From an uncultured Nitrospirales bacterium (GTDB lineage Bacteria > Nitrospirota > Nitrospiria > Nitrospirales > UBA8639), in the NCBI GenBank assembly GCA_951812745.1, contig OX638327.1, positions 1,849,914 to 1,913,913 on the forward strand: a stretch of DNA of 64,000 nucleotides. The letters are read 5' to 3'. Positions within the stretch are counted from its first letter, which is position 1; each line of letters opens with the position of its first letter. Both the position numbers and the translations under genes were made by a program. The notes under the pieces were generated by a model that was not told the DNA's origin, ran no database searches, and was given only the letters and a program-made list of their open reading frames with translations. Below are positions 3,336 to 33,137 of this stretch, in pieces.

Positions 3336-3399
3336 GCCGGGGAATCTCACCTTACCCACCCATCTTCATTCAGTCAAGGCCGTTGATGAATGCGGGCCG

Positions 3400-4217: not shown

Positions 4218-5018
4218 ATGGCCACGTACGCAATAGGCGATATTCAGGGGTGCCTGACTCCCCTCCAAAAACTGTTGGATCGCATTCGATTCGATCCGTC
4301 CGCTGATCGGCTGTGGTTTGTCGGCGATTTAGTCAACCGCGGCCCCCATTCGTTGGAAGTGCTGCGCTTCATCAAAGATCTCGAAAGCCGTTGCGTGGTC
4401 GTGCTCGGCAACCATGATTTGCATGTATTGGCGGTCCATTGCGGAGTCGCGCGGCTCCGGAAACAGGATACGATTCAGCCGGTCCTGGAGGCGCCTGATG
4501 CCAAGGAATTGCTGGACTGGCTGCGCCGTCAATCCATGCTCCATCGTGAAGGTGAGTATCTGCTTGTCCACGCCGGCATTCTTCCCCAATGGTCCGTCGA
4601 ACAAGCAGTAGGATTGGCCGCGGAAGTGGAGGAGGCCCTCGCATCCGAGGAATATCACACGCTCTTACCGTTCATTTACCGCAGTGAGGAGACCCGTTGG
4701 TCCGACACCATGCCGTCCCCGGCCCGCCTTGGTGTGATCACCAACGTCATGACCAGAATGCGGATGTGTTCACCGGATGGCCTCATCGACCTTTCGTTCA
4801 AAGGTCCGCCCGAACAGGCCCCTGCCGGCCTCTCCCCATGGTTTCACCTGCCCCCTCGCATCCCACGAACCGAAACGGTGATTTGCGGGCATTGGTCGGC
4901 CTTAGGGGTGTGCCTGGACGAAGGGGTGATCGCGTTGGACGGAGGGTGCGTCTGGGGAAACGAGTTGGCCTGTCTTCGATTGGAAGACAAGAAACTGTAC
5001 ACGATCGCGTGTTGCTGA
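4218..5018 (+). CDS. apaH: Symmetrical bis(5'-nucleosyl)-tetraphosphatase
   Basis: Hydrolyses diadenosine tetraphosphate to two ADP and in other bacteria also removes NpnN RNA caps. Metallophosphatase motifs are all present: GDIQG (7-11), GDLVNRGP (36-43), GNHD (64-67) and VHAGILP, plus a late GHWSALG. Length of 266 residues matches the family. The stop overlaps the start of the sensor kinase by one base (TGATG), so the two are probably co-translated, an unusual partner for apaH. Confidence 0.95.
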   Translation: MATYAIGDIQGCLTPLQKLLDRIRFDPSADRLWFVGDLVNRGPHSLEVLRFIKDLESRCVVVLGNHDLHVLAVHCGVARLRKQDTIQPVLEAPDAKELLDWLRRQSMLHREGEYLLVHAGILPQWSVEQAVGLAAEVEEALASEEYHTLLPFIYRSEETRWSDTMPSPARLGVITNVMTRMRMCSPDGLIDLSFKGPPEQAPAGLSPWFHLPPRIPRTETVICGHWSALGVCLDEGVIALDGGCVWGNELACLRLEDKKLYTIACC

Positions 5019-6853: not shown

Positions 6854-6867
6854 ATCGGGAAGCGCCC

Positions 6868-8268: not shown

Positions 8269-8280
8269 GGGTACCCGGGG

Positions 8281-8300
8281 GGAACAACGATCGTTGTTCC
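8281..8300. promoter_or_regulatory. Perfect 20-bp palindrome upstream of the response regulator
   Basis: GGAACAACGATCGTTGTTCC equals its own reverse complement and ends 12 bases before the regulator's start codon, a position suited to an operator or a leader hairpin. The 12-base core CAACGATCGTTG recurs at 49598-49609 next to a vapC gene. It could be a binding site for a dimeric regulator or a short repeat unit; only the symmetry is observed. Confidence 0.4.
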
Positions 8301-8441
8301 TGATAAGAACACCTATGAGGAAACGACCGGAAGCGATTCTAGGCCTAGCCTCCGCAAATCTCAATGGATTTTATAACGATCGGTTCATAACGATGGCCGT
8401 CGCACGATCTGTTCCCCTCTTTGTAAGGACGGGGCAGCCCC

Positions 8442-8525
8442 GTAGGTCGGGTTAGCCGAAGGCGTAACCCGACAACTTCGCCGTTTGATGCTTTAGTCGG
8501 ATTACGCTGCGCTAATCCGACCTAC
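8442..8525. repeat. Intergenic palindromic repeat (two hairpins, GTAGGTCGG ends)
   Basis: Two nested palindromes (GTCGGGTTAGCC...GGCGTAACCCGAC and GTCGGATTACGCTGCGCTAATCCGAC) are bounded by GTAGGTCGG and CCGACCTAC, so the whole unit is itself an inverted repeat. Units of this kind (GTAGG..GGGTTAGCG..CGTAACCC) are scattered between genes in many bacteria and are not coding. It lies between the response regulator and the CARF gene. Confidence 0.6.
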
Positions 8526-8600
8526 CCTGACTCGGCAGGCAGTCACGATCCTTTTCCGACGCTTGGAGTTTGCCGGGGGCGATGCTATAGTCTCGCCGTC

Positions 8601-9860
8601 ATGAGCGGGGAATATCGGACCAAAGCGTTACTCATCGCGGTTTCTATGGATCCTGTTCCCGTGCAAGCATGCATCAACCGGCTCGTCCCGGAGTTTCTCT
8701 GTTTCGTGGTCTCCGAATCCCGGAAAGCCTCTATCGAAGCCGACATTCAGCCGGCCATCACCACCATGCCACAGCGATGGGATTGGATTCTCGCGGAAGA
8801 GTCCGAAAGTTTTACGGCGGTTCATCAAACGCTCACCAAAAGCCTTCCCGACATATTGAAAACCTGGGGCCTGCAACCCGGAGAACTCGTCGTGGACTTC
8901 AGCCGGGCCACGCCGGCCATGGCCGCAGCCATGGCGCTCGCCAGCCGGGCGTGGACGTCGCAAGTCGTCGGCTTGACCACACCGGAGAGCAACACGGGGA
9001 AACGTGACGTGGTGACGTTCGGAGACCGGACCTTCGCCTGGCAAGAAGGGAATCCCTGGAACGAAGAAGCCGTGCCAGCGAGGCAGGAAGCAGCCCTGTT
9101 ATTCAATCAAGGGGCGTTTTCCCCGGCGGCCAAACGGTTTCGTCGCATTGAATCGCTGGTCGGGGGAAGCCTCAAACCGCTGTATCACGCCCTGGCGAAT
9201 TTGGCCGACGGCTATGCCGCCTGGGAAGGGTTCAAGTACCGGGACGCCTGGGACAAACTCAAAACCGCGCTCAAGGCCTTGGAATTGGCCTCGGTCTGGG
9301 GCGGGCCGCCCGGCATGTCCTCGTTACTGACCGGGGTCAAACAAAACCTGAAGTTTTTGGAAAGCATCGTCATGAACCCCGACGACGTCAAACTCCCCGT
9401 GGCGCATGATTTGCTTGCCCATGCCAAGCGACGCGGGGAACGTGACCAGCAAATCGACTCGGCCCTCCAACTGTTGCTTCGAGCCCTGGAAGCCTATGCC
9501 CAGTACCACTTGTGGAAGCAGTATCGCATCAAAAGCTGGGACGTGCAGGTCGAACAATTACCGCAGGATCTACAGGAACCCTGTCGTACCTGCTATATCG
9601 ACGACGTGGACGGCAAGTTTCATCTCCCGCTTCAAGCCCAATTTCGCGCCTTGGCCGGGCTGGGGCATCCCATGGGGCAGACCTTCGTGAACGAGTGGAC
9701 CAAGATCAAAACCTTGTGGGATGCGGCGCATCAGAGCGTCCTGGGTCACGGATTTCAAACCACGAAAGCCGACCGCTTTCATCAGTTCTATGCCGCGGCC
9801 GTCAAACTGACCAACGTCACCGAACCCAACCTGCCGGCCTTCCCGAAGATGACGCTGTAA
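8601..9860 (+). CDS. TIGR02710-family CRISPR-associated CARF-domain protein
   Basis: 419 residues. The N-terminal Rossmann-like part (KALLIAVSMDPVPVQACI, then 97-110 DFSRATPAMAAAM) matches the CARF layout; the usual DxTGGTK loop is replaced by DFSRATPAM, so ligand binding may differ. The C-terminal half (about 265-305, HDLLAHAKRRGERDQQ then LLLRALEAYAQYHL) is the signature of the Cas02710/TIGR02710 helical effector region. CARF proteins sense cyclic oligoadenylates made by Cas10 in type III CRISPR, but no cas gene or array is in this window, so it stands alone. It is followed by ybgC after 5 bases, perhaps transcribed together. Family call fairly sure; function here inferred. Confidence 0.75.
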   Translation: MSGEYRTKALLIAVSMDPVPVQACINRLVPEFLCFVVSESRKASIEADIQPAITTMPQRWDWILAEESESFTAVHQTLTKSLPDILKTWGLQPGELVVDFSRATPAMAAAMALASRAWTSQVVGLTTPESNTGKRDVVTFGDRTFAWQEGNPWNEEAVPARQEAALLFNQGAFSPAAKRFRRIESLVGGSLKPLYHALANLADGYAAWEGFKYRDAWDKLKTALKALELASVWGGPPGMSSLLTGVKQNLKFLESIVMNPDDVKLPVAHDLLAHAKRRGERDQQIDSALQLLLRALEAYAQYHLWKQYRIKSWDVQVEQLPQDLQEPCRTCYIDDVDGKFHLPLQAQFRALAGLGHPMGQTFVNEWTKIKTLWDAAHQSVLGHGFQTTKADRFHQFYAAAVKLTNVTEPNLPAFPKMTL

Positions 9861-9865
9861 CTCCA

Positions 9866-10246
9866 GTGGACGTCAAAATCTATTATGAGGACACTGACTG
9901 CGGCGGCGTGGTGTACTACGCCAACTATCTCAAATATTTTGAACGGGCGAGGACCGAATACTTGCTCGCACAGGGCATCTCGGTCGCGGAGCTTCAGCAG
10001 CAAGGCATCTACTTTTTAGTCACCCATGCGGAAGTCTTTTACCGCTCAGCGGCGCATTACGGAGAGACCCTCCACGTCGAAACGGTCGCCTCGGCATCAC
10101 GAAAAACCGCGGTCACCTTCTCTCACACGATCCGAGAAGCAACCAGCCAACGCCTGATCGTCGAAGGATCGGCCACCCTCGTCACAATCGACGCCAAGGG
10201 AAAAGTCATCAAAAGACCGCCTCAGTTGCAGGCGATGTTTCAGTAG
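9866..10246 (+). CDS. ybgC: YbgC-type acyl-CoA thioesterase (hotdog fold)
   Basis: 126 residues from the GTG at 9866, five bases after the CARF gene stop; the ORF is open much further upstream but that part only mirrors the CARF gene. YEDTDCGGVVYYANYLKYFERARTEYL is the hallmark active-site segment, with the catalytic Asp in the DTDCGGVVYY loop. YbgC enzymes hydrolyse short or acyl-ACP-linked thioesters and are normally linked to tol-pal, which is not seen here. No strong ribosome binding site is visible, suggesting coupling to the gene before. Confidence 0.9.
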   Translation: MDVKIYYEDTDCGGVVYYANYLKYFERARTEYLLAQGISVAELQQQGIYFLVTHAEVFYRSAAHYGETLHVETVASASRKTAVTFSHTIREATSQRLIVEGSATLVTIDAKGKVIKRPPQLQAMFQ

Positions 10247-10281
10247 CGTGCGCCTGAACGGCAGAGGGAACACCGACGATT

Positions 10282-10429
10282 TAGGGAACCGCTGATTTAT
10301 GGTGATAGCGGGATGCAGGGCAAGGCGTCCCGCAGCGAGACCCGAGACATATCAAGTAGATAGTCGAGGGTTGAGCGAGGACACAACGCCGCCATGCGCC
10401 CGATAGTGCCGTAAAGCAGAGGTTCCTTA
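10282..10429. repeat. MITE-like element with 31-bp imperfect terminal inverted repeats
   Basis: The left end (10282-10312, TAGGGAACCGCTGATTTATG) and the reverse complement of the right end (10399-10429, TAAGGAACCTCTGCTTTACG) match at about 23 of 31 positions. The 148-bp unit has no convincing ORF. Its right edge touches the stop of the zinc-ribbon gene. Size and symmetry suit a non-autonomous mobile element or a large palindromic repeat; no target duplication is evident. Confidence 0.5.
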
Positions 10430-10780
10430 GGGCTTGTCCCGAAACAACCAGGCTAAGTACATGCCGCCAATAGCGATCGTCACCAGTTCCACGGTCTGGA
10501 GGATGCGACTCACGACGGCCTCGGACTCCGGGGGCGACAGGATAAAATGCATGCCCAGGTAGGCAGGGGGAGAGCCGGGCGGCGACTCCCACGGCGGAAA
10601 CAGCACGGCCAGCACCAACAGTCCCGCCATACCGTACAGAATCCGAAGATTGAGGATCTCCTTGGATCGAGCCTCAGTCTGCGACTCCTGAACAAACCGC
10701 TTCCCGCAACCGGTGCAAAAGCGGGCATCCGAAGGCAACTCATGCCCGCAAGCCTGACATGTCTTATGACCATTCATCAT
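10427..10780 (-). CDS. Zinc-ribbon membrane protein of unknown function
   Basis: 117 residues. The N-terminus is a zinc ribbon with two CxxC pairs (CQACGHELPSDARFCTGCGK), followed by two hydrophobic helices (about 48-63 YGMAGLLVLAVLF and 93-110 VELVTIAIGGMYLAWLF). Such small ribbon-plus-membrane proteins are common and unassigned. It lies between two mobile-looking segments; its own stop sits at the edge of the MITE-like repeat. Confidence 0.6.
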   Translation of the reverse strand: MMNGHKTCQACGHELPSDARFCTGCGKRFVQESQTEARSKEILNLRILYGMAGLLVLAVLFPPWESPPGSPPAYLGMHFILSPPESEAVVSRILQTVELVTIAIGGMYLAWLFRDKP

Positions 10781-10965
10781 GTCAGATTATAACCATGGAA
10801 AGAGAAATTACCAGCAGGGAAAAGCGAGAGCCCATGCCAGACGGGATTCGTACCTGTCAGAAAACGGTTTCAAAAGAGATGCTGGCAAGGTAAGATTGGG
10901 AGATGATCGTGAAGTAACCTAGCTAATATCCAGAGAAGCACGACAGAAGATGTTGTGTTTTTAAT

Positions 10966-11175
10966 GTGAAGACCTGCGCCCATGATCTGCACCGTGACGG
11001 TGGGAGGAAACTCGCCATTAACCTCAAGGCAGAAATGGACGCAAACTTGATCGAAGCCTATCGTGGTACAGTCTTCCTTCCCTTCAAATCGGGTAAGAAC
11101 AAGCGCATCGCAGTCTAAATCATCGACGACCGCGGCATCGAAAGCCTGAAGGTGTGGAGGTGGAGTGATGGCTAG
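10966..11175 (+). pseudogene. Remnant: C-terminal end of a DNA methyltransferase (type III-like Mod)
   Basis: Reading from 10966 the frame gives KLAINLKAEMDANLIEAYRG, then TVFLPFKSGKNKRIAV, a TAA at 11116-11118, and then IIDDRGIESLKV. The pattern (AIxLKAExD...PFxxGKxxRIAVKVIDDRGIESLKV) is the familiar tail of adenine-specific methylases or related enzymes in type III-like restriction loci. The in-frame stop and absence of the catalytic domain upstream show decay. The remnant runs into the ietA start. Assignment rests on recall of the motif and is moderate. Confidence 0.45.
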
Positions 11176-12157
11176 GGCGGATTTACTTATAAGCTTAATA
11201 AAATCTATCAGTAAAGGGGATCAACTCGCTGTTCGCCGGGCTATAGACGGTATCATCAGTGATGAACGTGAGAATAAACACCATCTCCTTGCTGACCGCC
11301 TCGCTTCTATTGTACGCGAAAATGGTGAACCAACGCGCCGGCCAGGTCGAATCCTGAACGATGGCATCGAGCATCTGCTTTATCACCGTATGCCCGAGCG
11401 ACGGCTGCCCGAGATTATTCTAAGCCAAAAAAATCGGGCGGTGATTGAGGAGTTAGTTGAGGAGCATCACAGGGCCGATCTGCTGAAGAGCTATGGTTTG
11501 ATCCCACGCAATCGGCTCATGTTCATTGGTCCACCAGGCAACGGGAAAACGACCTTGGCGGAGGCTTTGGCCAATGAGCTGATGGTGCCGTTCCTCATCG
11601 TTCGTTACGAAGGTTTAATTGGCAGCTTTCTTGGAGAAACGGCTTCCCGTTTACAGAAAATCTTTGATTTTGCCTGTCAGCAGAAATGCGTTCTGTTCTT
11701 TGATGAATTCGACGTTGTCGGCAAGGAGCGGGGCGATACGCATGAAACTGGCGAAATTAAGCGGGTTGTCAGCTCCCTGCTATTGCAAATCGATGCGCTA
11801 CCCAGTTACTCGGTTGTCGTGGTCGCCAGCAACCACGCTCAACTTTTGGATTCTGCCGTGTGGCGTCGGTTCCAGATTCGTATTGAATTGCCCCGTCCAA
11901 CCCAAGCCCAACTCATCGGGTTTCTTCAGAACTATGAAGAAGAAAGATCGCTCAAATTTGGCCTGCACGCAAGGACCATTGTCAAAAGAGTCAGCTTCGA
12001 CTCTTTTTCAGCACTGGAGGATTTTTGTCGTGACGTCTATCGCCGGGCTGTCCTCGACAGGCAACAGGATAACGCCAGGAAAATAACCGAGTGTAAAATC
12101 CTCCAGTGGCGCGATCAGTTAAAGATAACCAAAGCGACCTCTAGACACGATGCCTGA
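11168..12157 (+). CDS. ietA: IetA-like AAA+ ATPase, defence system subunit
   Basis: 329 residues. ATG at 11168 follows a GGAGG at 8-12 bases; GTG at 11165 is also in frame. One AAA+ module: Walker A GPPGNGKTT (about 122-130), Walker B VLFFDEFD (176-183), sensor 1 VVVASNH (218-224) and arginine residues in WRRFQ. The gene overlaps the subtilase gene by 8 bases. AAA+ ATPase plus S8 subtilase in tandem is the composition of IetAS, an experimentally described anti-phage system. The ATPase probably remodels or gates the protease; mechanism is inferred. Confidence 0.85.
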   Translation: MARADLLISLIKSISKGDQLAVRRAIDGIISDERENKHHLLADRLASIVRENGEPTRRPGRILNDGIEHLLYHRMPERRLPEIILSQKNRAVIEELVEEHHRADLLKSYGLIPRNRLMFIGPPGNGKTTLAEALANELMVPFLIVRYEGLIGSFLGETASRLQKIFDFACQQKCVLFFDEFDVVGKERGDTHETGEIKRVVSSLLLQIDALPSYSVVVVASNHAQLLDSAVWRRFQIRIELPRPTQAQLIGFLQNYEEERSLKFGLHARTIVKRVSFDSFSALEDFCRDVYRRAVLDRQQDNARKITECKILQWRDQLKITKATSRHDA

Positions 12158-21689: not shown

Positions 21690-23066
21690 GTGAAGCGTAT
21701 TCGGCACGCGGTGCCAGGCCGGCTGCTGGCCCTCCAAACCCTCCTGGCCGTCGAACGGCAAAACTGCTTTGCCGACGATGCGTTTGCCAAGTCCGCCACG
21801 CACGCGAACCTGTCGCACGAAGACCAGGCCCTGGCGTTTGAACTCGTGTACGGGGTGCTCCGCCACCGGGCCTCGCTGGATTGGCAATTGAACGCCGTCG
21901 CGAGTCGTCCCGTTCACCGGTTGCCGAAGGTCGTGGCTGCCATCCTGCGACTCGGCGCCTATCAGATGCGCTATTTGGATCGCATCCCGGTTTCCGCCGC
22001 GGTGAACGAATCGGTCAAACTCGCCAAAGGAGTCAAGGGCCGGGACTGGAGTGGCGTGGTAAACGGTATTCTTCGGAATTTGAACCGGACGGAAGTCGAA
22101 TGGCCGGATATGGATCTCGATCCGGTGAACGGTCTGTCCGTCACGTATTCTTGCCCGAACTGGTTGACGCAACGCTGGCTCGACAGATGGGGTCTCGAGG
22201 AAGCGGAAGCGATGTGCCGGCACACCCTCACCATCCCACCCCTGACGTTGCGAACCAACACGCTCCACTGTTCTCGCGAGCAACTCGAAGCCAGGCTTGG
22301 TGAAGAAGGGTATACGGTGTCCCGGACGGCGGTCAGCCCCCAGGGACTCATTCTGGAGAAATGTGGGTCGTTACAGGCCTTGCCCGTGTTACAGGAGGGC
22401 TGGTGTTACGTAGAGGATGAGGCCGCCCAATTGGTTTCCCTGCTGTTGGACGTCAAGCCCGGACAGCGTGTCCTGGACGCGTGCGCAGCTCCCGGAGGGA
22501 AGTGTTCACATCTCGCGGCGTTGATGCAGAACCAGGGGGAAATCGTGGCCACCGATCCGGAACCCCGGCGCCTGAAACGCCTGGAATCGAATCTGCAGAC
22601 ACTGGGCATCACGTGTGTGCAAACGGCCGAGATCTCTGAGGAGATCTCCTTTGCCTCGCCGGCGTTTCACGATACCTGGGGCCGGACGGGGTTTGATCGC
22701 ATCCTGGTGGATGCGCCCTGCTCGGGCTTAGGGGTGCTCCGTCGCCATCCCGAAGCGAAATGGCAGAAGACTGCCTCGCAACTCGATCGGCACGCTGAAC
22801 GTCAATCAGGCATCCTGGAACAGGTGGCTCCTTACTTGAGACCGGGCGGAGTCTTGGTCTATAGTGCGTGCTCAACGGAGCCTGAGGAAACCACACAGGT
22901 CGTTTCTCGTTTTTGCCAGGACCACCCGGAATTTTGCCATGAATCGTCGGCAGGTTGGCTTCCTCCACATGCGCATTCCCTGACGAACCCGGACGGCGAT
23001 TTCCTCACGTCCGGTTTCCATTACAATATGGATGGGTTTTTTGCCGCACGACTTCGACGAACGTAG
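21690..23066 (+). CDS. rsmB: 16S rRNA (cytosine(967)-C(5))-methyltransferase
   Basis: GTG start at 21690 with GGGAAG just upstream; 458 residues. N-terminal NusB-like RNA-binding domain (about 1-150), then a class I methyltransferase domain with DACAAPGGKCSHLA (SAM motif), the catalytic Cys motifs DAPCSGLGVLRRHPE and YSACSTEPEE. The two active cysteines are present. It is followed by rpe after 3 bases. Confidence 0.95.
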   Translation: MKRIRHAVPGRLLALQTLLAVERQNCFADDAFAKSATHANLSHEDQALAFELVYGVLRHRASLDWQLNAVASRPVHRLPKVVAAILRLGAYQMRYLDRIPVSAAVNESVKLAKGVKGRDWSGVVNGILRNLNRTEVEWPDMDLDPVNGLSVTYSCPNWLTQRWLDRWGLEEAEAMCRHTLTIPPLTLRTNTLHCSREQLEARLGEEGYTVSRTAVSPQGLILEKCGSLQALPVLQEGWCYVEDEAAQLVSLLLDVKPGQRVLDACAAPGGKCSHLAALMQNQGEIVATDPEPRRLKRLESNLQTLGITCVQTAEISEEISFASPAFHDTWGRTGFDRILVDAPCSGLGVLRRHPEAKWQKTASQLDRHAERQSGILEQVAPYLRPGGVLVYSACSTEPEETTQVVSRFCQDHPEFCHESSAGWLPPHAHSLTNPDGDFLTSGFHYNMDGFFAARLRRT

Positions 23067-23069
23067 AAG

Positions 23070-23750
23070 ATGAGTCCCGCAACCATACACATTGCTCCTT
23101 CGATTCTCTCCGCCGACTTCGCGCACCTGGCCGATGAAATCGCCTCGGTGGAAGCCGCGGGGGCCGACCTTCTGCACGTGGACGTGATGGACGGACATTT
23201 CGTGCCGAACCTGACGATCGGCCCTCCCATTGTCGAGTCGCTGCGAAAAGTGACCGCCCTGCCCCTCGACGTCCATCTGATGGTGACGAATCCGGATACC
23301 TGCATTCCCGACTTTGCCCAAGCCGGCGCCAACTATCTCACGGTGCATACGGAAACCTGTCCCCATTTACACCGTACCATTCAATGTATCAAAGAGCTTG
23401 GGGTCAAGGCCGGGGTCACGCTCAACCCGTCGACTTCCTTGAGCGCCCTCGAAGAAGTCGTCGCGGACGTTGACCTGGTGCTGATCATGTCGGTCAATCC
23501 GGGGTTTGGAGGACAAGCCTTTATCCCTGCCTGTCTTGATAAGATCCGGCGTGCCAGGCAGCTCATCGACCGGACCGGCAGCCACGCCCTACTGGAAGTG
23601 GACGGCGGCATCAAAGTCGAGAACGCCGGGGACGTGCTCAAAGCCGGGGCCGACGTTTTGGTCGCGGGGTCGGCGATTTTTCGAAGCCCGAATTATGCCG
23701 ACACGATTGCCGCGTTCCGCACCGTTGCCCGCGAACTCCAACCGCGCTAA
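23070..23750 (+). CDS. rpe: Ribulose-phosphate 3-epimerase
   Basis: Interconverts ribulose-5-P and xylulose-5-P in the pentose phosphate and Calvin pathways. 226 residues. IAPSILSADFAHLADEI, LHVDVMDGHFVPNLTIGP, DVHLMV and MSVNPGFGGQAF are all family signatures, with metal-binding His/Asp in place. Close spacing to rsmB and pheS suggests one transcript. Confidence 0.97.
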   Translation: MSPATIHIAPSILSADFAHLADEIASVEAAGADLLHVDVMDGHFVPNLTIGPPIVESLRKVTALPLDVHLMVTNPDTCIPDFAQAGANYLTVHTETCPHLHRTIQCIKELGVKAGVTLNPSTSLSALEEVVADVDLVLIMSVNPGFGGQAFIPACLDKIRRARQLIDRTGSHALLEVDGGIKVENAGDVLKAGADVLVAGSAIFRSPNYADTIAAFRTVARELQPR

Positions 23751-23754
23751 GTCC

Positions 23755-25317
23755 ATGCAGACCTCGGCTGTGTATGACAGTTTGCATCCTCTCGAAATCA
23801 ACCTGCTGGCGGCTTTCAGCCAATCCGCGGACAAGCCGGTCTCTGATTCGTCCTTACAGGAAATCTCCCGATTAGAGCCGTCCCAAGTCAGCATGGCCCT
23901 GGGGTGGCTTCAAGCAAAAGAGCTGGTCCGCATCCATTCCGAAGTCACCACCGCCTGGGTGGGGTTAACGGAGGTCGGGCATCGCTACCTGGAAATCGGC
24001 TCTCCCCCTGAGTGGATCGTGAAAACGTGCCGGCAAGGGGCCGAGGAGGGGCGATCGTTCACCGTGAAAGATTTACAGGGCCTGAACACGTTCCCTCCCG
24101 CGGAACTCAGTCGAGCCTTTGGTCTGCTCAAAAAAGAGGGGGCCATCGCCTTGGGAGCCGGCGGCCGCATTGAAGCCACCGAGACGCCGAGTCCCACTGT
24201 TGAGAAACTGCAAACGCTCTTGAACCAGGTGAAAGAGAGCCCACAGGAACTTCTCTCGTTTTCGCCGGACCAACAAGCCCTTTTACGCCAGTACGCGGTG
24301 AAACGGGGAAGCGCCCAGGAGCCGTTTCGTATCGATGACCGGGTTCAACGCGAGTACACCCCGACCAAAACCGGAAAGGCGGTGGCGAAACGCTGTCATG
24401 CCGGGGCCGTGGAAGAAGTCTCCCAACTGACGCCCGATATGCTCAAGGACGGCTCATGGCGCAGCAAGCGTTTCCGGAAATACACCATTTCCCTGAGACC
24501 CCCTCGGGTCGCTCCCGGACGGCGGCATCCCTACAGAGAATTTCTCGACCTGGTCAAACACAAATTGGTCGCCATGGGATTTCAGGAAATGCGAGGCCCC
24601 CTGGTCGAGACCGAATTTTGGGACATGGATGCCCTGTATATGCCCCAATTCCATCCGGCGCGGGCCATCCACGACGTCTACTTTGTGAAAACTCCGACCC
24701 ATGCGGAGACGATCGCCGAACCGTTTCTCTCTCAAGTGGCAGCCACCCATGAGCACGGCGGGCCGACCGGCTCAAGCGGGTGGGGTTATCGCTATGACAA
24801 GGAACGGGCGCGTCGCTTGATCCTGCGAAGCCAGGGCACGGCCGTTTCGGCCCGAACCCTGGCGTCGAATCCCCTGGTACCCGGCAAATATTTTTCCATG
24901 GCCCGGTGTTTTCGCTATGACCAGGTGGACGCGACGCATGCCACGGATTTCTTTCAGATCGAAGGAATCGTGTTGGGCGACGATATCAATTTTCGAACGC
25001 TGCTGGGTCTGCTTACCATCTTTGCCAAAGAAATGGCGCAGGCTCAGGAAAGCAAGTTTTTCCCGGCCTATTTTCCTTTCACGGAACCGTCCGTGGAACT
25101 GCACGTCCGTCATCCGAAACTCGGCTGGATGGAATTGGGGGGCGCCGGCTTGTTCCGGCCTGAGGTCACCCAACCCCTGGGAGTCACGGTGCCGGTGATT
25201 GCATGGGGTTTGGGTCTGGATCGAATGGCCATGGTGGCCTTGGGCATTCACGATATTCGCGAACTCTTTTCCGTCGACCTTGAAAAAGTTCGCACCTTGC
25301 GCGGGCGGTTTGCATAA
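23755..25317 (+). CDS. pheS: Phenylalanyl-tRNA synthetase alpha subunit, archaeal/eukaryotic type
   Basis: 520 residues from the ATG at 23755; the open frame before it only overlaps rpe. The N-terminus is a tandem winged-helix region (about 10-170) that resembles archaeal and eukaryotic PheRS alpha, not the coiled coil of bacterial PheS (usually about 330-350 residues). The class II core from about 250 includes YREFLDLVKHKLVAMGFQEM, ARCFRYDQVDATHATDFFQIEG and the motif-3 GLGLDRMAMVALGI. It is directly followed by pheT with no gap. Bacteria normally have a different type, so this pair was probably acquired from an archaeon or a lineage that did so. Confidence 0.93.
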   Translation: MQTSAVYDSLHPLEINLLAAFSQSADKPVSDSSLQEISRLEPSQVSMALGWLQAKELVRIHSEVTTAWVGLTEVGHRYLEIGSPPEWIVKTCRQGAEEGRSFTVKDLQGLNTFPPAELSRAFGLLKKEGAIALGAGGRIEATETPSPTVEKLQTLLNQVKESPQELLSFSPDQQALLRQYAVKRGSAQEPFRIDDRVQREYTPTKTGKAVAKRCHAGAVEEVSQLTPDMLKDGSWRSKRFRKYTISLRPPRVAPGRRHPYREFLDLVKHKLVAMGFQEMRGPLVETEFWDMDALYMPQFHPARAIHDVYFVKTPTHAETIAEPFLSQVAATHEHGGPTGSSGWGYRYDKERARRLILRSQGTAVSARTLASNPLVPGKYFSMARCFRYDQVDATHATDFFQIEGIVLGDDINFRTLLGLLTIFAKEMAQAQESKFFPAYFPFTEPSVELHVRHPKLGWMELGGAGLFRPEVTQPLGVTVPVIAWGLGLDRMAMVALGIHDIRELFSVDLEKVRTLRGRFA

Positions 25318-27012
25318 ATGCCGACGATTTCCTTTTTTCAGAAAGATTTTGAACGGCTTCTCGGGCGAACGGCTCCGCTTGAGCAACTGGAGTCGTGGTT
25401 GCCGTTGGTCAAAGGGGAATTAAAAGATTATACCCAGGCCACCGGCGAAATCCGGCTGGAACTTCAGGACAGCAACCGGCCGGATCTGTGGAGCGTGGAA
25501 GGGATTGCGCGGCAGATTCGGATCAAGTTGCAAGGGTCGCCGCTGGCCTATCCTTTCCTTCAAACCAAGACCAAACCCAAACGGAGCATTCTGGTGGCCG
25601 AGGGACTCGAACGGGTGCGACCGTACGTGGCGGCCTGTACGGCCACGGGATATACCGTCACCGAGGAAAGCCTGACGCAACTCATTCAGGCACAGGAGAA
25701 GCTGGCCGATCTGTACGGCCATAAACGAAAAACCGTATCGGTGGGACTGTATCGACTTTCCCGGATCCGGTTCCCCGTGACCTATGGTTTGGTGAAACCC
25801 ACTGAAGCCCGATTCACGCCTCTCGGACTTTCCGAAAAACTGACCCTTCAGGAGATCCTGACGGTTCATCCCAAAGGCATCGAGTACGGCTCCATTCTCG
25901 TTGATCAGCCCCTGCTGCCTTTACTGTGGGATACGGAAGGCCAGATTTTATCCTTTCCCCCCATCATCAACAGCCAAGACATCGGGCAGGTCCACGCCGG
26001 TGATTCAGACCTGTTGGTCGAAGTCACGGGCACGGATATGCGAATGGTTCTCCTGACACTGAACATTTTTGCCACGAATCTGGCCGACCGCGGAGCTGTC
26101 ATCGACCCGATCGACATTCAGTATCCGTATGACACGGAGTGGGGAAAGTCGCTCAGAACTCCCTGCGACATCAGCGACGTGCAGAAAATTCCCCTGAAAG
26201 CCATTGACTCCGCCCTCGGACTCCCCTTCGACGCCGAACTCGTGCAACAGACCTTGCGGGCCTATGGGTATGAAGTCAAAGCGAGCCGCCATATACTCGC
26301 GGTGCGGTTACCGCACTATCGAAGCGATCTCATGCATCCGGTGGACGTGGCGGAAGACGTGGCGATCAGTCGCGGGTACGACTCGTTTGTTCCGCTGATG
26401 CCGGCCCAGTTTACCGTGGGCTCGTTATCGGCTCTGGAAATGATGTCCGATTACATCCGCGATCACATGATCGGGCAGGGGTTCCAGGAAATCTTTTCCA
26501 ATATTCTGCTGTCCCGTGAAGAGCTTGTCGATCGGATGGGACTGCCTGCCGCCGACCAGGTCGTGGAAGTGGACAACGTCATGTCACAGAGCTTCTCCTG
26601 TCTCCGATCCTGGATCCTGCCTTCGCTGTTGCGCGTGGAGACGGCCTCGCCCCGCGCGTTCTACCCCCACCGGCTTTTTGAAATCGGTGAAGTCGCGATC
26701 CCCGATTCGACCCATGAACTCGGGTCACGGACCATGGTTCAACTGGGAGTCGTCATTGCCCATCCCCATGCAAACTTTTCCGAAGTGCACACCTGCCTGG
26801 ACATGCTGATGTTTTATCTGGTGAAGGACTATGAACTCGAGCCCCTGAGTCACGAATCCTTCCTGGACGGCCGAGCGGGCACCATCCTCTCCCAGGGACA
26901 ATCCGTCGGGCTGATCGGCGAACTCCACCCCGAAGTCCTGGAGAACTGGGGCATCTCCGTCCCCATCTCGGTATTCGAGCTCGACATGGACTGGCTGTGC
27001 GCCGAGAGTTAG
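25318..27012 (+). CDS. pheT: Phenylalanyl-tRNA synthetase beta subunit, archaeal/eukaryotic type
   Basis: 564 residues, close to the archaeal PheT length (about 550) and far below the bacterial 790-800: the tRNA-binding EMAP-like N-terminus and the anticodon-binding C-terminus of bacterial PheT are absent. The B3/B4 editing region is around 100-260 (TVSVGLYRLSRIRFPVTYG, FPPIINSQDIGQV), then B5 and the catalytic-like core (DVAEDVAISRGYDSFVPLMP, MGLPAADQVVEVDNVMSQSFSCLR). ATG abuts the pheS stop. Confidence 0.93.
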   Translation: MPTISFFQKDFERLLGRTAPLEQLESWLPLVKGELKDYTQATGEIRLELQDSNRPDLWSVEGIARQIRIKLQGSPLAYPFLQTKTKPKRSILVAEGLERVRPYVAACTATGYTVTEESLTQLIQAQEKLADLYGHKRKTVSVGLYRLSRIRFPVTYGLVKPTEARFTPLGLSEKLTLQEILTVHPKGIEYGSILVDQPLLPLLWDTEGQILSFPPIINSQDIGQVHAGDSDLLVEVTGTDMRMVLLTLNIFATNLADRGAVIDPIDIQYPYDTEWGKSLRTPCDISDVQKIPLKAIDSALGLPFDAELVQQTLRAYGYEVKASRHILAVRLPHYRSDLMHPVDVAEDVAISRGYDSFVPLMPAQFTVGSLSALEMMSDYIRDHMIGQGFQEIFSNILLSREELVDRMGLPAADQVVEVDNVMSQSFSCLRSWILPSLLRVETASPRAFYPHRLFEIGEVAIPDSTHELGSRTMVQLGVVIAHPHANFSEVHTCLDMLMFYLVKDYELEPLSHESFLDGRAGTILSQGQSVGLIGELHPEVLENWGISVPISVFELDMDWLCAES

Positions 27013-27077
27013 TGACCGGAAAAGTCGAAATCAACAAAGAAATGCTGACGCTACGTACACTGTCGATACGCTTCGAC

Positions 27078-27121
27078 TTGAAGTGTTTTACAACAGGGCT
27101 ATATAATTATAGTTATATAGC
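27078..27121 (+). promoter_or_regulatory. Promoter with overlapping palindromic operator of the AbrB/Doc module
   Basis: TTGAAG (27078-27083) and TATAAT (27102-27107) are separated by 18 bp. The inverted repeat GCTATATAA/TTATATAGC (27098-27106 and 27113-27121, 6-bp spacer) overlaps the -10 box, ideal for autorepression by the antitoxin encoded 12 bases further on. Confidence 0.65.
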
Positions 27122-27133
27122 TGGGAGGTTGAC

Positions 27134-27361
27134 ATGCTTTCCTTCAAAATTACGACGGTCGGGGCGTCTTCCGGGGTGATCCTCACCAAAGAGGCTATGG
27201 CCAAACTCAAGGTGAAGAAGGGTGACACGCTCTATTTGACCGAGGCGCCGGATGGCGGATACCGGCTCACGCCCTATGATCCCGATTTTGCGCGTCAGTT
27301 CGCGCTGGCCGAAGACATTATGCATGACGACCGGGAGGTACTGCGAGCGCTGGCCAAGTGA
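27134..27361 (+). CDS. AbrB-family antitoxin of a Doc-type toxin
   Basis: 75 residues with a GGGAGG ribosome binding site 4-9 bases upstream. N-terminal AbrB-type DNA-binding hairpins (ITTVGASSGVILTKEAMAKLKV, KKGDTLYLTEA) and a C-terminal tail (FALAEDIMHDDREVLRAL) suited to neutralise Doc. The stop overlaps the toxin GTG start. It likely binds the palindrome at 27098-27121. Confidence 0.88.
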   Translation: MLSFKITTVGASSGVILTKEAMAKLKVKKGDTLYLTEAPDGGYRLTPYDPDFARQFALAEDIMHDDREVLRALAK

Positions 27362-27789
27362 GCACTGAAGATTCGAGTCCATGGCGTTGGGTTGAACCGA
27401 GTGTCGTGTTTGCGATCCATGACCGCCAACTCGCCGAGCATGGCGGGGCCGAAGGCATTCGCGATTCGGGGGCGATTGAATCGGCTCTGGCTCATCCGGT
27501 AAACCTCGCGAGCTACAGCGACCCAGATGCGGCTGATCTTGCCGCAGCCTATGCCTACGGCCTCGTGAAGAACCATGGCTTCATCGACGGCAACAAGCGT
27601 ACCGCCTGGGTTGTCGCTCGCCTGTTCCTGGCCGATAATGGTCAACGGCTCACCTTCGACCCCTTGGATGCGATTCAGATCATGGAAGGTGTCGCCAGCG
27701 GTCGGATCAACGAAACCACGCTCGCCGAGTGGTTCCGCCGGCGTCTGGAGCGTCGAGTGCGACGTGAGAAACTCCGCAATGTTTTATGA
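27358..27789 (+). CDS. doc: Doc/Fic-type toxin
   Basis: 143 residues from GTG 27358, overlapping the antitoxin stop. The Fic core motif reads HGFIDGNKR, matching HxFxDGNKR with the catalytic histidine; Doc kinases usually have HxFxxANKR, so the Gly in place of Ala makes it look slightly more Fic-like. Doc inactivates EF-Tu by phosphorylation and Fic proteins adenylylate targets; which applies here is not decided. The 3' end has a decayed copy at 29704-29811. Confidence 0.9.
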   Translation: MSTEDSSPWRWVEPSVVFAIHDRQLAEHGGAEGIRDSGAIESALAHPVNLASYSDPDAADLAAAYAYGLVKNHGFIDGNKRTAWVVARLFLADNGQRLTFDPLDAIQIMEGVASGRINETTLAEWFRRRLERRVRREKLRNVL

Positions 27790-27978
27790 CCCGGCGCCTG
27801 AGAATACCGCGCCATCATACTGGCCTAGCCAGAACAATTTACGAAAAACTTTTTTGCCGACCCGCCGTGGGCCGCATTTTTACTCGATGTCTTCGGCTAG
27901 CGGGAACTGCTGGGTGTTCCCTTTTTGGATTGAAATACCGGCACCTCTCGACTACTCTGTTTCAGGAGAGTAGCGCCC

Positions 27979-29100
27979 ATGAGTTACACTATCGAACGAG
28001 ATGGGCATGGGAGAAAGGACGTGTCAGTGAACGACGCACGTGAAATAGACAGTTCACGACCCATGAGCCAAACACGGCTTCTGTGTTGGATCCGGTGGAC
28101 AACCGGAGCGCTGCTACTCCTAAATATCGCCATACCGATCATAGCGTCAGCGCAGGAGCGGCAGCTGCAGTTCGTGACGACGGTATGGCCGCCGTTCACC
28201 AACGAGCCAGGACAGCCGCGATTCGCCCTCGATCTGGTCGGAGAGGCTCTCGAACGCGTGGGGGTCACCGCTGAAACGGTCATCGTGGACGAGGCCAGGC
28301 TGACGCCCTCACTGCTGAGCGGCGAGTTCGATGGAAGCGCGGCTCTCTGGAGGGGGGGGAAGGAGCGCGAACGCGTGCTGATTTACTCACAGCCGTATCT
28401 CGAGAACCGGTTGATCCTCGTCGGGCGGCAGGGCAGCGACGTGTCCGCGACCTCGCTTGCCGATCTCGCCGGCAAGCGGATCGCCGTGGTCGCCGGGTAC
28501 GAATATGGCAAGGTCGTCGAGACGACGGACGGGCCAATCTATGTTGGCTCGGACAGCGAAGAGGACAGCGTCGCAAGACTCCTCAACGGTGAGGTGGACT
28601 ACACGCTGATAGACGACCTGGTGATCCAGTACCTCATCAGCAACCACGGAGAAGAAGCTCGAACGCGGCTGGCGTTCGGCTCGGCGCCGCTGCTCACACG
28701 CTCGCTTCACCTCGCCGTCCGCCGGTCGCTTCCGGACGCTAAGTTAATTATCTCGCGGTTCAACGCCGAACTGCGCGGCATGATCACCGACGGCAGCTAC
28801 CATCGCCTGCTCCGCCTCGACTGGATTCGAGCGGACATCGACGGCGACGGTCGCAGGGAGTACGTGCCTCACGTCGATCGAATCGGCCCACATCCGCCGG
28901 AGCGTTCCTACGAACTCTTCACGCCAGCTAGTCCGACCACGGGGCCCGGCACGACTCGGCGCTTCTACTTCGATGGCAACATCTACGAAGGCTGGTCCGC
29001 CGTGCCCGCCCAGCACAAGGCCCTGGACTTCACCATACCCGAACCGCTACCCGAACCGCCGGGTCGACACACGATCCCAATCTTCACCTTCAAGTTTTAG
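27979..29100 (+). CDS. Periplasmic solute-binding protein family 3 (amino-acid ABC type), orphan
   Basis: 373 residues as the longest form. The signal peptide is MSQTRLLCWIRWTTGALL... beginning at 28063, but the best-spaced ribosome binding site (AAAGGA) precedes GTG 28027, so a start near 28027 is likely and 27979 is the upper bound. The bilobal binding domain spans about 60-280 (TTVWPPFTNEPGQPRFALDLVGEALERVGV, LADLAGKRIAVVAGYEYG, EEDSVARLLNGEVDYTLID). A C-terminal extension has a DIDGDGRREYV calcium-loop-like motif. No permease or ATPase gene is adjacent, and it sits between the two doc copies, so it may be a sensor or passenger. Confidence 0.7.
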   Translation: MSYTIERDGHGRKDVSVNDAREIDSSRPMSQTRLLCWIRWTTGALLLLNIAIPIIASAQERQLQFVTTVWPPFTNEPGQPRFALDLVGEALERVGVTAETVIVDEARLTPSLLSGEFDGSAALWRGGKERERVLIYSQPYLENRLILVGRQGSDVSATSLADLAGKRIAVVAGYEYGKVVETTDGPIYVGSDSEEDSVARLLNGEVDYTLIDDLVIQYLISNHGEEARTRLAFGSAPLLTRSLHLAVRRSLPDAKLIISRFNAELRGMITDGSYHRLLRLDWIRADIDGDGRREYVPHVDRIGPHPPERSYELFTPASPTTGPGTTRRFYFDGNIYEGWSAVPAQHKALDFTIPEPLPEPPGRHTIPIFTFKF

Positions 29101-29302
29101 CGGGAGCGAGTCCACTGCACTCGTATCACGTGATCCCGTAGAGGATGTGCCCAGGTCGCCGTCATGAGGCGACGGCTGGCGGGAGCATCCGGGGCGTGGA
29201 CGCCGTTAGCGGTTGCTGAATTGGCCGGTGCCGGGATACCCGTATCGTGCGGCGCGACTCGGTCGGCAAGCAGGCCGAATCGCTAAGGCCTGAACGCTGG
29301 CG

Positions 29303-29641
29303 TTACCGCGGCGGGTTGTTAGCGAAGTCGCCGGCGCGGAATATCGATATCTTCTCCAGGTCGATGTGCCGGCGCATCGCCGCAAGGAGGTCGTCGGGGG
29401 TCAGCGTCGCCGAATCGACGGTCTGAGCGTCGACTTTCACGAGCTGGTCACCACTCGAACCCGCGGCCTGGAGCGGCCTCTCGACAGGATCGAAAATATT
29501 TCCCTGACGAGTTCGGAAGACCACCCGGAATTGCCGGAAGAGCAGTGATTCCTGACCACCAATCACCGGGTGCCTTCGGGCGGACCCTTCATGGTCTACA
29601 GGACGTATCTGAACGGCTGGTGACGGCGCAAACGGAAGCAC
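29303..29641 (-). CDS. Possible hypothetical protein or gene fragment
   Basis: 112 codons on the reverse strand in a 780-bp region otherwise without genes. The last 50 residues (SGDQLVKVDAQTVDSATLTPDDLLAAMRR) look protein-like, but the first half is low quality and I recognise no domain. It could be the tail of a lost gene. Rest of 29101-29878 shows nothing else apart from the doc fragment. Confidence 0.25.
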   Translation of the reverse strand: MLPFAPSPAVQIRPVDHEGSARRHPVIGGQESLLFRQFRVVFRTRQGNIFDPVERPLQAAGSSGDQLVKVDAQTVDSATLTPDDLLAAMRRHIDLEKISIFRAGDFANNPPR

Positions 29642-29703
29642 GCCCTTGTTTTCAGAAGTCGAACTATCAAGGCTGATGGTTAACCGGTCGAGCGTCGGTA
29701 CGC

Positions 29704-29811
29704 TTCGACCCCTTGGATGCGATTCAGATCATGGAAGGTGTCGCCGGCGGTCGGATCAACGAGGCCACGCTCGCCGAGTGGTTCCGCCGGCATCTGGAGA
29801 CTACGTTGTGA
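29704..29811 (+). pseudogene. Remnant of a second doc gene (3' end)
   Basis: The segment repeats the end of doc (27654-27756) at near identity: FDPLDAIQIMEGVAGGRINEATLAEWFRRHLE followed by TTL and a stop. Everything upstream of codon 100 is missing. The sequence just before (TACGCTTCGAC) also occurs upstream of the intact module's promoter at 27067-27077, so a deletion between short CTTCGAC repeats of a second toxin-antitoxin copy is a plausible origin. Confidence 0.8.
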
Positions 29812-29878
29812 CAGGATCGAGACGGATGACAAGGAAGCGACCGGCTGTCCTCATCACCGCTATGAGATTGTGACGGGT

Positions 29879-30232
29879 TTAGGCCGCGGCTTTGGCCATG
29901 TCCGTCAGGGATTTGAATCCGGCCGGATCGTGAATGGCCATCTCCGACAACATCTTCCGATTCAGGGCCACGTTGGCTTTGGTCAACTCATGGATAAACC
30001 GGCTGTACGATAACCCGTGCGCTTTGACCGCTGCCGAGATCCTGGCAATCCACAGTCGCCGAAAATCTCTTTTGCGATGCCGCCGGCCGATGTACGCGTA
30101 GACCTGGCCTTTATCGACTGATTCCGTTGCCGTCCGAAATAGTTTGCTTCTGCCCCCATACTGCCCCTTGGCTAATTTCAGCCGCTTTTTTCTACGGCGA
30201 CGGGTTTGGGGGCCTCCTTTGACACGTGGCAT
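29879..30232 (-). CDS. rplT: 50S ribosomal protein L20
   Basis: 117 residues, start PRVKGGPQTRRRRKKRLKLAKGQYGGRSKLF, the conserved basic L20 N-terminus that binds 23S rRNA and in some bacteria regulates the operon. Last gene of thrS-infC-rpmI-rplT read leftward. In many bacteria pheST follows; here it does not. Confidence 0.97.
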   Translation of the reverse strand: MPRVKGGPQTRRRRKKRLKLAKGQYGGRSKLFRTATESVDKGQVYAYIGRRHRKRDFRRLWIARISAAVKAHGLSYSRFIHELTKANVALNRKMLSEMAIHDPAGFKSLTDMAKAAA

Positions 30233-30581: not shown

Positions 30582-31103
30582 TTAATTCTTGGGCGACACA
30601 ATCATATACAGATTGCGCCCTTCCATCCTCGGCTCCATTTCGATTGTGGCCGTCTCCTTGAGCTCTTCCCGAACCTTTTCCATAGCCGACCGACCCAGAC
30701 TTTGGTTGGCCATTTCCCGGCCTCGAAACATGACCGTCACTTTGGTTTTGTTCCCTCCCGCCAAAAACTCCAGGATCTGGCGAACCTTGGTTTCGAGGTC
30801 ATGTTTATCCGTTCGCGGACGAAATTTAATTTCCTTTACCTGGGTCGACTTTTGATGCTGACGCGTTTTATGTTCTTTCTTGCTCTGTTCGTACTTGAAT
30901 TTCCCAAAATCCATAATCCGGCACACCGGCGGCGTGCTGGTGGCAGCGACTTCCACCAAATCAAACCCGCCCTCATGAGCCAGTTTGAGCGCCTCGGACG
31001 TCTTGAGGATCCCCAGTTGTTCACCTTCTGATCCAATCACCCGGACTTCGGGCACCCGAATCAAGTGGTTCACACGATGCTTGGCAGTGACCGTTCTACC
31101 CAT
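30582..31103 (-). CDS. infC: Translation initiation factor IF-3
   Basis: 173 residues. IF-3 N-domain (VNHLIRVPEVRVIGSEGEQLGILKTSEAL, DLVEVAATSTPPVCRIMDFGKFKYEQ), lysine-rich linker and C-domain (EIKFRPRTDKHDLETKVRQILEFL). The gene uses ATG, not the AUU start that regulates infC in E. coli; the ATG shares one base with the thrS stop. Confidence 0.96.
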   Translation of the reverse strand: MGRTVTAKHRVNHLIRVPEVRVIGSEGEQLGILKTSEALKLAHEGGFDLVEVAATSTPPVCRIMDFGKFKYEQSKKEHKTRQHQKSTQVKEIKFRPRTDKHDLETKVRQILEFLAGGNKTKVTVMFRGREMANQSLGRSAMEKVREELKETATIEMEPRMEGRNLYMIVSPKN

Positions 31104-33067
31104 CAGTGAACTGACACACTGGTCTCTGGTTCTGTTGGCATATCTTGTCGAATCAGATCAAGCACCTCGGTGATGGACAACGTCCCAACGTCGGTCCCGC
31201 TGCGTTTTCGCACGGAGACCGATTGGGCCTCCCGTTCCCGATCCCCCACGACGAGCATGTAGGGAATCTTGGCTTTTTCGGCTTCGCGGATTTTGAGGCC
31301 TACCTTTTCTTTTCGCAAGTCTATCGAGGCGCGCAGCCCGGCGTTCGCCAAGCGGTCCCGGACGTGTGACGCATACTCCGCCTGTTTGTCCGTAATGGGC
31401 AGCACGATGGCCTGGACGGGGGCGAGCCACGTCGGAAACGCCCCGGCATAATGTTCTATCAGAATGCCGAAAAACCGTTCGATGGAGCCCATCAGCGCCC
31501 GGTGTATCATGATCGGTTGGTGCGCCGCGCCATCCTCCCCGATGTAGGACAAGCCGAACCGTTCGGGATTATTGAAGTCGATTTGCACCGTCGAACATTG
31601 CCAGGCCCGCCCCAACGCGTCATGGATTTTCAGATCGATTTTCGGCCCGTAAAACACGCCCTCGCCGGGGTCAACCTCATAGGGGAACCCGCTGCTTTTC
31701 AGTGCGGCTTCGAGGGCCTCCGTGGCCTGGTCCCATTTTTCCACGGCGCCGACGGCTTTTTCCGGTCGCGTGGACAGATACAACGCGAACTCCGTAAAGC
31801 CGAAACGCCGGAGAACAAACATCGTGAAATCGAGGACCTTTTTGACTTCGGATTCGATCTGGTCCGGACGGCAGAAGATATGCGCGTCATCCTGTGTGAA
31901 GCCCCGGACCCGCATGAGGCCATGCAGCACCCCTGACCGCTCGTAGCGATAGACCGTTCCCAATTCACCATAGCGAATGGGAAGCTCCCGGTAGCTGCGC
32001 AAGTGGGACTTGTACACCATGATGTGGAACGGGCAATTCATCGGCTTTAACTGGTACTCACCCGCCTCGACGGCCATGGGCGCGAACATGTTTTCCTTGT
32101 AATAGTCCACGTGCCCGCTGGTTTTCCACAACTCCAGCCTAGCCACGTGCGGGGAATAGACCAATTCATAGCCGTGCTGCACGTGGCTGTCGCGCCAAAA
32201 ATTCTCGATCAACAACCGAACCAGCGCCCCCTTGGGATGCCACAGGATCAACCCCGGCCCCGTGTCTTCGGGACTGCTGAAGAGATCCAGTTCTTTGCCG
32301 AGTTTGCGATGATCGCGGCGTTTGATTTCTTCCAGCTTCTGGAGATGGGCGTCCAATTCCGCCTGGGTCGGGAACGAGGTCCCGTAAATGCGCTGCAGCA
32401 TGGGATTGCGTTCATCCCCCCGCCAATACGCGCCGGCGGCGTTCAACACCTTGAAGGCTTTCACCTGACCGGTCGCGCCCACGTGCGGCCCCCGGCACAA
32501 GTCGATGAAATTGCCCTGCTTGTAGAGCGAGACGGCTTCATCCTCGATCTGTTCGATGATTTCGACCTTGAAGGCTTCCCCTTTCTCCCGAAACAGGTTG
32601 ATCGCGTCTTCCTTCGACATCTCCAGGCGCTGCACGGGATAATTTTCTCGTATAATCTCGTGTGCCCGTGCCTCTATTTTTTCGAGATCCTCGGGCGTGA
32701 ACGGCCGTTCAAAGGAAAAGTCGTAATAGAAGCCTTCGTGAATGGCCGGGCCTATCGTGAGATTGGCCGAAGGAAACACGTCTTTCACGGCCTGGGCCAT
32801 AATATGAGTGCTGCTGTGCCGATAAATTTCCTTCCCGTCATCCGACGCAAAGGTCACGGGCTCCAGCGTCGCGCTCTTGGTCAGGGGGGCACTCAAGTCA
32901 CCGGGTTGCCCGTCAATCCTCACGGCGAACACCTCCGGCGGTAGAAGCCCCGTCATCTCCGTCAACGCCTCGCGCGCCGTGACCCCGGACCGAAAGGTTT
33001 TCGTGCCGGTCCCCGGCAACGAGATTTCGATGCGTTCGCCCTGGGCTTCTTCAAGAGAAACTGACAT
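31103..33067 (-). CDS. thrS: Threonyl-tRNA synthetase
   Basis: About 654 residues from ATG 33067 (an ATG at 33088 is also possible). TGS domain at the N-terminus (IEISLPGTGTKTFRSGVTAREAL), editing domain (HSSTHIMAQAVKDVFP, FIDLCRGPHV), then class II core with the EGFYYDF, MNCPFHIMVYK, RYGELGTVYRYERSG and motif-3 VQIDFNNPERFGLSY stretches, and an anticodon-binding C-terminus. Heads the operon with infC-rpmI-rplT. No T-box leader is seen; tRNA-Val lies 50-70 bases upstream on the same strand. Confidence 0.97.
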   Translation of the reverse strand: MSVSLEEAQGERIEISLPGTGTKTFRSGVTAREALTEMTGLLPPEVFAVRIDGQPGDLSAPLTKSATLEPVTFASDDGKEIYRHSSTHIMAQAVKDVFPSANLTIGPAIHEGFYYDFSFERPFTPEDLEKIEARAHEIIRENYPVQRLEMSKEDAINLFREKGEAFKVEIIEQIEDEAVSLYKQGNFIDLCRGPHVGATGQVKAFKVLNAAGAYWRGDERNPMLQRIYGTSFPTQAELDAHLQKLEEIKRRDHRKLGKELDLFSSPEDTGPGLILWHPKGALVRLLIENFWRDSHVQHGYELVYSPHVARLELWKTSGHVDYYKENMFAPMAVEAGEYQLKPMNCPFHIMVYKSHLRSYRELPIRYGELGTVYRYERSGVLHGLMRVRGFTQDDAHIFCRPDQIESEVKKVLDFTMFVLRRFGFTEFALYLSTRPEKAVGAVEKWDQATEALEAALKSSGFPYEVDPGEGVFYGPKIDLKIHDALGRAWQCSTVQIDFNNPERFGLSYIGEDGAAHQPIMIHRALMGSIERFFGILIEHYAGAFPTWLAPVQAIVLPITDKQAEYASHVRDRLANAGLRASIDLRKEKVGLKIREAEKAKIPYMLVVGDREREAQSVSVRKRSGTDVGTLSITEVLDLIRQDMPTEPETSVSVH

Positions 33068-33137
33068 GCTTCTGCAATCTCCCACCATCTACCTGCTACA
33101 AACGGCCTTCATCCTGCCCTCTCGCGGAAGGAGAGGG

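Follow-up and report, generated by a model that had tools for sequence, protein, structure and literature searches.

An archaeal-type phenylalanyl-tRNA synthetase replaces the bacterial enzyme in a Nitrospirales genome and lies close to the rplT operon

A 64,000-nucleotide stretch of an uncultured Nitrospirales genome (hereafter the window) encodes a phenylalanyl-tRNA synthetase (PheRS) of archaeal appearance, located close to an rplT gene that lacks the downstream pheST pair of its bacterial-type relatives. This raises the question of whether the pair has truly replaced the bacterial enzyme and, if so, when this occurred, from what source, and why the pair is found at this particular site.

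Gene pair, copy number and tRNA-Phe

The pheS gene (23755..25317, plus strand) starts with an ATG at 23755 and encodes 520 amino acids, with the stop codon ending at 25317. The ATG of pheT (25318..27012, plus strand; 564 amino acids) directly abuts this stop. Both genes are intact, and as their GC content (0.58 for pheS, 0.57 for pheT) matches that of the window (0.56), there is no sign of recent arrival. PheS scores 559 bits against NF003210/PRK04172 (cut-off 350) and 272 bits against PF01409. PheT matches the archaeal model TIGR00471 (pheT_arch) over its full length with 455 bits (cut-off 283), while the match to the bacterial model TIGR00472 (pheT_bact) is only partial, at 127 bits (cut-off 403).

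PheS consists of N-terminal winged-helix modules (residues ~1–215) followed by the class II catalytic core, and PheT contains B1, B3/4 (editing), B5 and catalytic-like modules, with PF03484 and PF17759 among its domain matches. A domain search found neither the bacterial coiled coil (PF02912) in PheS nor tRNA_bind (PF01588) and FDX-ACB (PF03147) in PheT. In these respects the pair is unlike the bacterial PheRS of the infC-rpmI-rplT-pheST operon, with which it shares the reaction and the genomic neighbourhood. The bacterial-type PheT proteins of this phylum that served as controls do contain FDX-ACB, as well as a strong B3/4 match. PF03483 gives no score with the window PheT, and the Thermococcales control reaches only 28 bits. 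PheT residues 1–354 align to 2cxi (N-terminal 348 residues of an archaeal beta subunit), editing domain included, and the key B3/4 positions are invariant in an alignment of 24 sequences that includes archaea. The best match for the predicted PheS model is full-length human cytosolic PheRS alpha (3l4g chain C; 526 alignment columns, E 2e-30). The model displays three helix/strand modules ahead of residue ~215; with a mean pLDDT of 80 and a pTM of 0.51, the relative domain placement is uncertain.

The winged-helix N-terminus of alpha and the short beta subunit with editing domain are shared with archaeal and eukaryotic cytosolic PheRS (2cxi, 3l4g), and identity to the archaeal subunits is about 34–41% for beta and 37–40% for alpha. 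The window pair is an archaeal/eukaryotic-type (type 2) PheRS and not one of bacterial type. The original prediction, which relied on the long winged-helix pheS and the short pheT, is thus borne out by family scores, domains and the PheS model. Existing database models already name both proteins correctly.

The genome is a single contig of 2,346,994 bases, 100% complete by score. Only a single PF01409 match is present in this complete genome, corresponding to the window pheS, and no pheT_bact match exceeds the cut-off. The two weak TIGR00472 matches correspond to the C-terminal part of the window pheT and to a short stretch (positions 43–123) of a 649-residue frame elsewhere. Given that the complete genome contains neither a second PF01409 match nor a bacterial pheT, the archaeal-type pair is its sole PheRS, and a true replacement.

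We also considered the tRNA substrate. A bacterial tRNA-Phe pattern has exactly one match per genome in 36 of the 37 genomes scanned. The genes have a GAA anticodon and A73 and, with the Myxococcota row as called the one exception, also encode the CCA; they are alike in hosts of archaeal-type and bacterial-type PheRS. No sign of a co-transferred archaeal-type tRNA-Phe was seen among these 37 genomes. The archaeal-type PheRS therefore most likely charges the bacterial tRNA-Phe. Bacterial host and bacterial tRNA set the pair apart from PheRS of archaea and eukaryotes.

Distribution and phylogeny

The pheT_arch model detects a gene in 57 of 59 relatives, ranging from genus to order; the two relatives without a match are 64% and 71% complete. 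Across the phylum, pheT_bact is matched above cut-off in 84 of 195 genomes, and the split between types follows families (labelled f), excepting a few genomes for which no intact pheT was found. The archaeal type occurs in f1–f11 (all sampled families of the class), f12, f13, f16, f19, f20 and f36, and the bacterial type in f14, f15, f17, f18, f21–f35 and f37. Since the distribution follows families, the replacement is old, neither local nor recent, and not an event in this genome. The notion of a displacement particular to this genome must therefore be abandoned, the archaeal type being order- and class-wide. The closest named sequence is that of Nitrospira sp. bin75 (L108), with 95–97% identity, and a same-genus locus (L084) comes from OY282373.1, an uncultured Nitrospirales. 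An apparent type switch within genus g38 (G064 versus G073) was rejected, as the bacterial-type gene in G073 is no more than a fragment.

Many of the bacterial-type Nitrospirota PheT proteins (L038–L063, e.g. L061 1357–3465) begin at model position ~156, without the N-terminal tRNA_bind domain, and are 703 residues long compared to 827 in f14. This loss of an EMAP-like domain across many families of bacterial PheRS may deserve a separate look.

A pattern scan of named genomes yielded archaeal-type PheRS from Nitrospirota, Fermentibacterota, WOR-3, an Armatimonadetes MAG, Myxococcota MAGs and many archaea. Later searches added Thermococci, Thermoproteota and eight genomes of a Myxococcota-like phylum, in which 8 of 174 genomes score above the pheT_arch cut-off and 166 below. 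The archaeal-type loci L096, L140, L072, L206–L213, L064 and L141 belong to WOR-3, the Armatimonadetes MAG, the Myxococcota lineage and Fermentibacterota. Bacterial pheT is absent from all 12 further hosts checked, bacteria included (among them those of L096, L140, L072, L064 and L141). No archaeal-type pheT was found in 72,556 plasmid records.

We constructed an unrooted tree of the combined PheS and PheT sequences (82 rows, 1012 columns), comprising 37 archaea, mostly DPANN, Thermococci and Thermoproteota, and 45 bacteria; the trees cover neither spirochaetes nor eukaryotes. A single, fully supported branch splits all 37 archaea from all 45 bacteria (100* combined, 98* for beta, 90 for alpha). 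The alpha and beta trees agree in separating archaea from the bacterial members and in grouping f16 with f36, and both subunits share one history. The window pair is found in a well-supported clade of bacteria only (Nitrospirota, the Myxococcota lineage, Armatimonadota, WOR-3 and Fermentibacterota), and beyond its own phylum the pair is closest to sequences from bacteria. Among the sampled archaea there is no sister specific to the window pair or to Nitrospirota. Because the pair sits in a bacterial archaeal-type clade, the immediate donor may have been another bacterium; being unrooted, the trees do not themselves give a direction from archaea into bacteria. The original prediction held that placement with bacteria would speak against horizontal transfer. 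The pair is literally so placed, yet the bacteria of this clade likewise carry the archaeal form; hence horizontal transfer stands, while no particular archaeal donor emerges.

An alternative is that an archaeon was the direct donor to the ancestor of Nitrospirota, which later passed the pair on to other bacterial phyla. In its favour, the distribution in Nitrospirota is broader and more varied than in any other group sampled, and the Myxococcota-type and Armatimonadota sequences branch near them. However, Fermentibacterota fall outside Nitrospirota with strong support, WOR-3 does so too in the alpha tree, and a Nitrospirota-specific archaeal sister is absent from the sample. We consequently regard a direct archaeal donor as rather unlikely.

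PheRS type changes at least three times on the rpoB tree, and with rpoB the grouping of all archaeal-type Nitrospirota into one clade is rejected (p-AU 0.004); the enzyme has thus also been transferred between lineages of the phylum. The PheRS tree shows f16 as sister to f36, near f13 and f19; moving f16/f36 into the core group is rejected only marginally (p-AU 0.042). The Leptospirillum-like f20 falls outside the other Nitrospirota in the PheRS trees, possibly as a long-branch effect or through a separate acquisition, its long branch rendering the placement uncertain. Read most simply, this indicates a single old acquisition leading to f1–f13, f19 and f20, followed by one or two transfers to f16 and f36. 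Separately, the rpoB open frame in two f20 genomes (L293 and L294, from G067 and G075) spans 1724–1730 codons, exceeding that of the other families by ~400 residues, and the rpoB model match is broken between positions 221 and 254. The f20 RpoB hence looks like it bears a large insertion, judging from the open frames.

The site beside the rplT operon

In the window, pheS and pheT end a run headed by rsmB (16S rRNA methyltransferase; 21690..23066, plus strand; PF01189, PF01029) and continued by rpe (ribulose-phosphate 3-epimerase; 23070..23750, plus strand; PF00834, 292 bits), which lies 4 nt upstream of pheS. The rpe-pheS-pheT order is kept in many families, with rsmB upstream of rpe in f1, f3, f7, f10 and f12. 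Facing this run on the minus strand are rplT (29879..30232), the last gene of thrS-infC-rpmI-rplT, and the upstream part of that operon (30582..33088, with infC at 30582–31103 and thrS at 31103–33088), the order of which is kept in relatives. A bacterial-type pheST would be expected on the low-coordinate side of rplT. As the original prediction states, no pheST follows rplT, with the qualification that the archaeal-type pair is found on precisely that side, 2.9 kb away and tail-to-tail.

In bacterial-type relatives, rplT, pheS and pheT are collinear in f18, f21, f22 and f25 (for f18 and f22 as read from coordinates), and in bacterial-type f14 rplT and pheT sit on separate contigs. Among archaeal-type families, pheT is tail-to-tail with rplT in f1, f2, f3, f5, f9, f10, f13, f19 and f20. 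The common arrangement is rsmB-rpe-pheS-pheT followed by reversed rplT-rpmI-infC-thrS, the pheT-rplT gap being 3–167 bp in most such genomes and 0.7–10 kb in some. No pheST was found near rplT in f4, f12, f16 and some members of the class. The proposal that the pair lies near the ancestral site is supported, as the tail-to-tail pheT/rplT arrangement is kept in at least eight families, often with less than 200 bp in between.

The 2.9-kb gap of the window (27013..29878; PF02661, PF00497) contains genes for an AbrB-like antitoxin (27134–27358), a Fic/Doc toxin (27358–27789) and a solute-binding protein (27979–29100). A 97-nt direct repeat (27654–27750 and 29703–29799, 96%) frames the AbrB/Doc module and the solute-binding protein gene, and reveals a second, truncated doc fragment. 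The gap is limited to the window genus and nearby genera, and its content differs between genus-mates. This variation, together with gaps of only 3–167 bp in many other genomes, identifies the 2.9 kb as a later insertion. Hence, the original estimate of about 3 kb is accurate as a measurement, but the distance provides no evidence of displacement. Of the genus-mates, L126 apparently contains only a doc remnant at the gap. L363 (from G010) has ~1 kb between pheS and pheT (3367–4401) and 5.6 kb from pheT to rplT (6106–11685). With different content in each genus-mate, the position behind pheT behaves as a variable insertion site. The AbrB/Doc toxin-antitoxin pair resembles pairs on alphaproteobacterial plasmids.

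It could be argued that the closeness to rplT is a coincidence, an unrelated rearrangement having carried an rsmB-rpe-pheST block there, with independent loss of the bacterial pair from that site or elsewhere. The orientation is indeed opposite to that of the bacterial operon, rsmB-rpe travels with pheST, and the block in f12 was not found linked to rplT. In contrast, adjacency to rplT recurs in families as distant as f1 and f20, f36 is collinear, and, for a genome of 2.35 Mb, we estimate the chance of a random landing within ~3 kb of a given operon at less than 1%. Coincidence therefore appears rather unlikely.

Family f36 is informative in this respect. Its two loci (L149, L362) show thrS-infC-rpmI-rplT-pheS-pheT on a single strand with archaeal-type pheS and pheT, as found in one metagenome-assembled genome. 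In the rpoB tree, f36 is sister to bacterial-type families (99/93). As the archaeal-type pair occupies the collinear place of the bacterial-type pair in relatives, this looks like an in situ replacement behind rplT. A mis-binned or contaminant contig is not favoured, since the f36 thrS, infC and rplT branch, with modest support (83/86), with those of bacterial-type f21/f22, in agreement with rpoB. Between rplT and pheS of L362 (about 2812–2893) lies a short repeat-like stretch containing the palindromes GGACAGCCGTCTCGGCTGTCC and GACAGGCGAGACGCCCGTCC, possibly a REP/MITE-like element from its sequence. Tentatively, we propose that a bacterial-borne archaeal-type PheRS may circulate between bacterial phyla as an allele interchangeable with the bacterial enzyme, landing time and again within or next to the rplT operon through recombination in conserved flanking genes, in which case f36 would represent a direct in situ operon swap and the tail-to-tail form of Nitrospirales a second outcome. 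A pheS-pheT fusion suspected in L142 from long open frames is more likely an effect of high GC.

Replacement history and its implications

It is also conceivable that early bacteria possessed both PheRS types, later sorted by differential loss without any displacement in the phylum. The separation of the bacterial archaeal-type clade from all sampled archaea agrees with this, and a patchy distribution would fit loss as well. We nevertheless judge it improbable: both types occur together in none of the genomes examined, the Myxococcota-like phylum contains the 166 genomes without a match over the pheT_arch cut-off, and the f36 pair sits exactly at the bacterial pheST site, which suggests replacement. 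Finally, that the pair is an extra copy with a bacterial-type pheST elsewhere has next to no chance of being correct, the full-genome search envisaged by the original prediction having refuted it for this assembly: the complete, one-contig genome yields a single PF01409 match, and no bacterial pheT scores above the cut-off.

We thus consider it highly probable that the sole archaeal-type PheRS displaced its bacterial counterpart in an ancestor shared by Nitrospiria, the Leptospirillum-like lineage and their allies, by way of a bacterial pool and beside the rplT operon. The source would be an archaeal-type PheRS pool circulating among bacterial phyla, with an ultimately archaeal origin presumed. 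The incoming pair would have become fixed beside thrS-infC-rpmI-rplT, the usual place of the bacterial pair, resulting in a tail-to-tail arrangement with rplT in most lineages and a collinear position behind rplT in f36. Vertical inheritance would have followed, with at least one further transfer inside the phylum. We infer the direction of transfer, the sequence in which the events took place and the route of recombination. Judging from the family, the enzyme would be an alpha2beta2 tetramer in which the class II core of PheS activates phenylalanine and the B3/4 domain of PheT proofreads, and would charge the ordinary bacterial tRNA-Phe.

Archaeal-type PheRS has been described in spirochaetes (Borrelia, Treponema, Spirochaeta) by Woese et al. 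2000 (via PMC2939571) and Andam & Gogarten 2011 (PMC3191353). As in Nitrospirota, both archaeal-format subunits supplant the bacterial pair there as a shared derived character, other members of the phylum having the bacterial form. PMC3191353 links the spirochaete genes to Thermococcales, unlike the sampled Nitrospirota genes, which join other bacteria and not Thermococci. The rplT-operon position is not among the topics of the passages drawn on, and Nitrospira is not mentioned in Andam & Gogarten 2011 (PMC3191353). We found no account of PheRS replacement in Nitrospirota in the open-licence literature. While this kind of replacement is known from spirochaetes, the recurrent link to the rplT site, with the apparent collinear swap in f36 as one instance, goes beyond the routine.

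These observations have practical consequences. Genome phylogenies employ both pheS and pheT as universal markers (pheS is one of 24 genes in PMC3636077), yet the two are of other origin in about half of Nitrospirota, and for this reason can distort trees or seem missing in completeness checks. Furthermore, with both PheRS types, intact neighbouring genes and a possible in situ swap within one phylum, Nitrospirota offer a natural experiment well suited to studying how an essential enzyme of two subunits can be exchanged while its tRNA stays the same.
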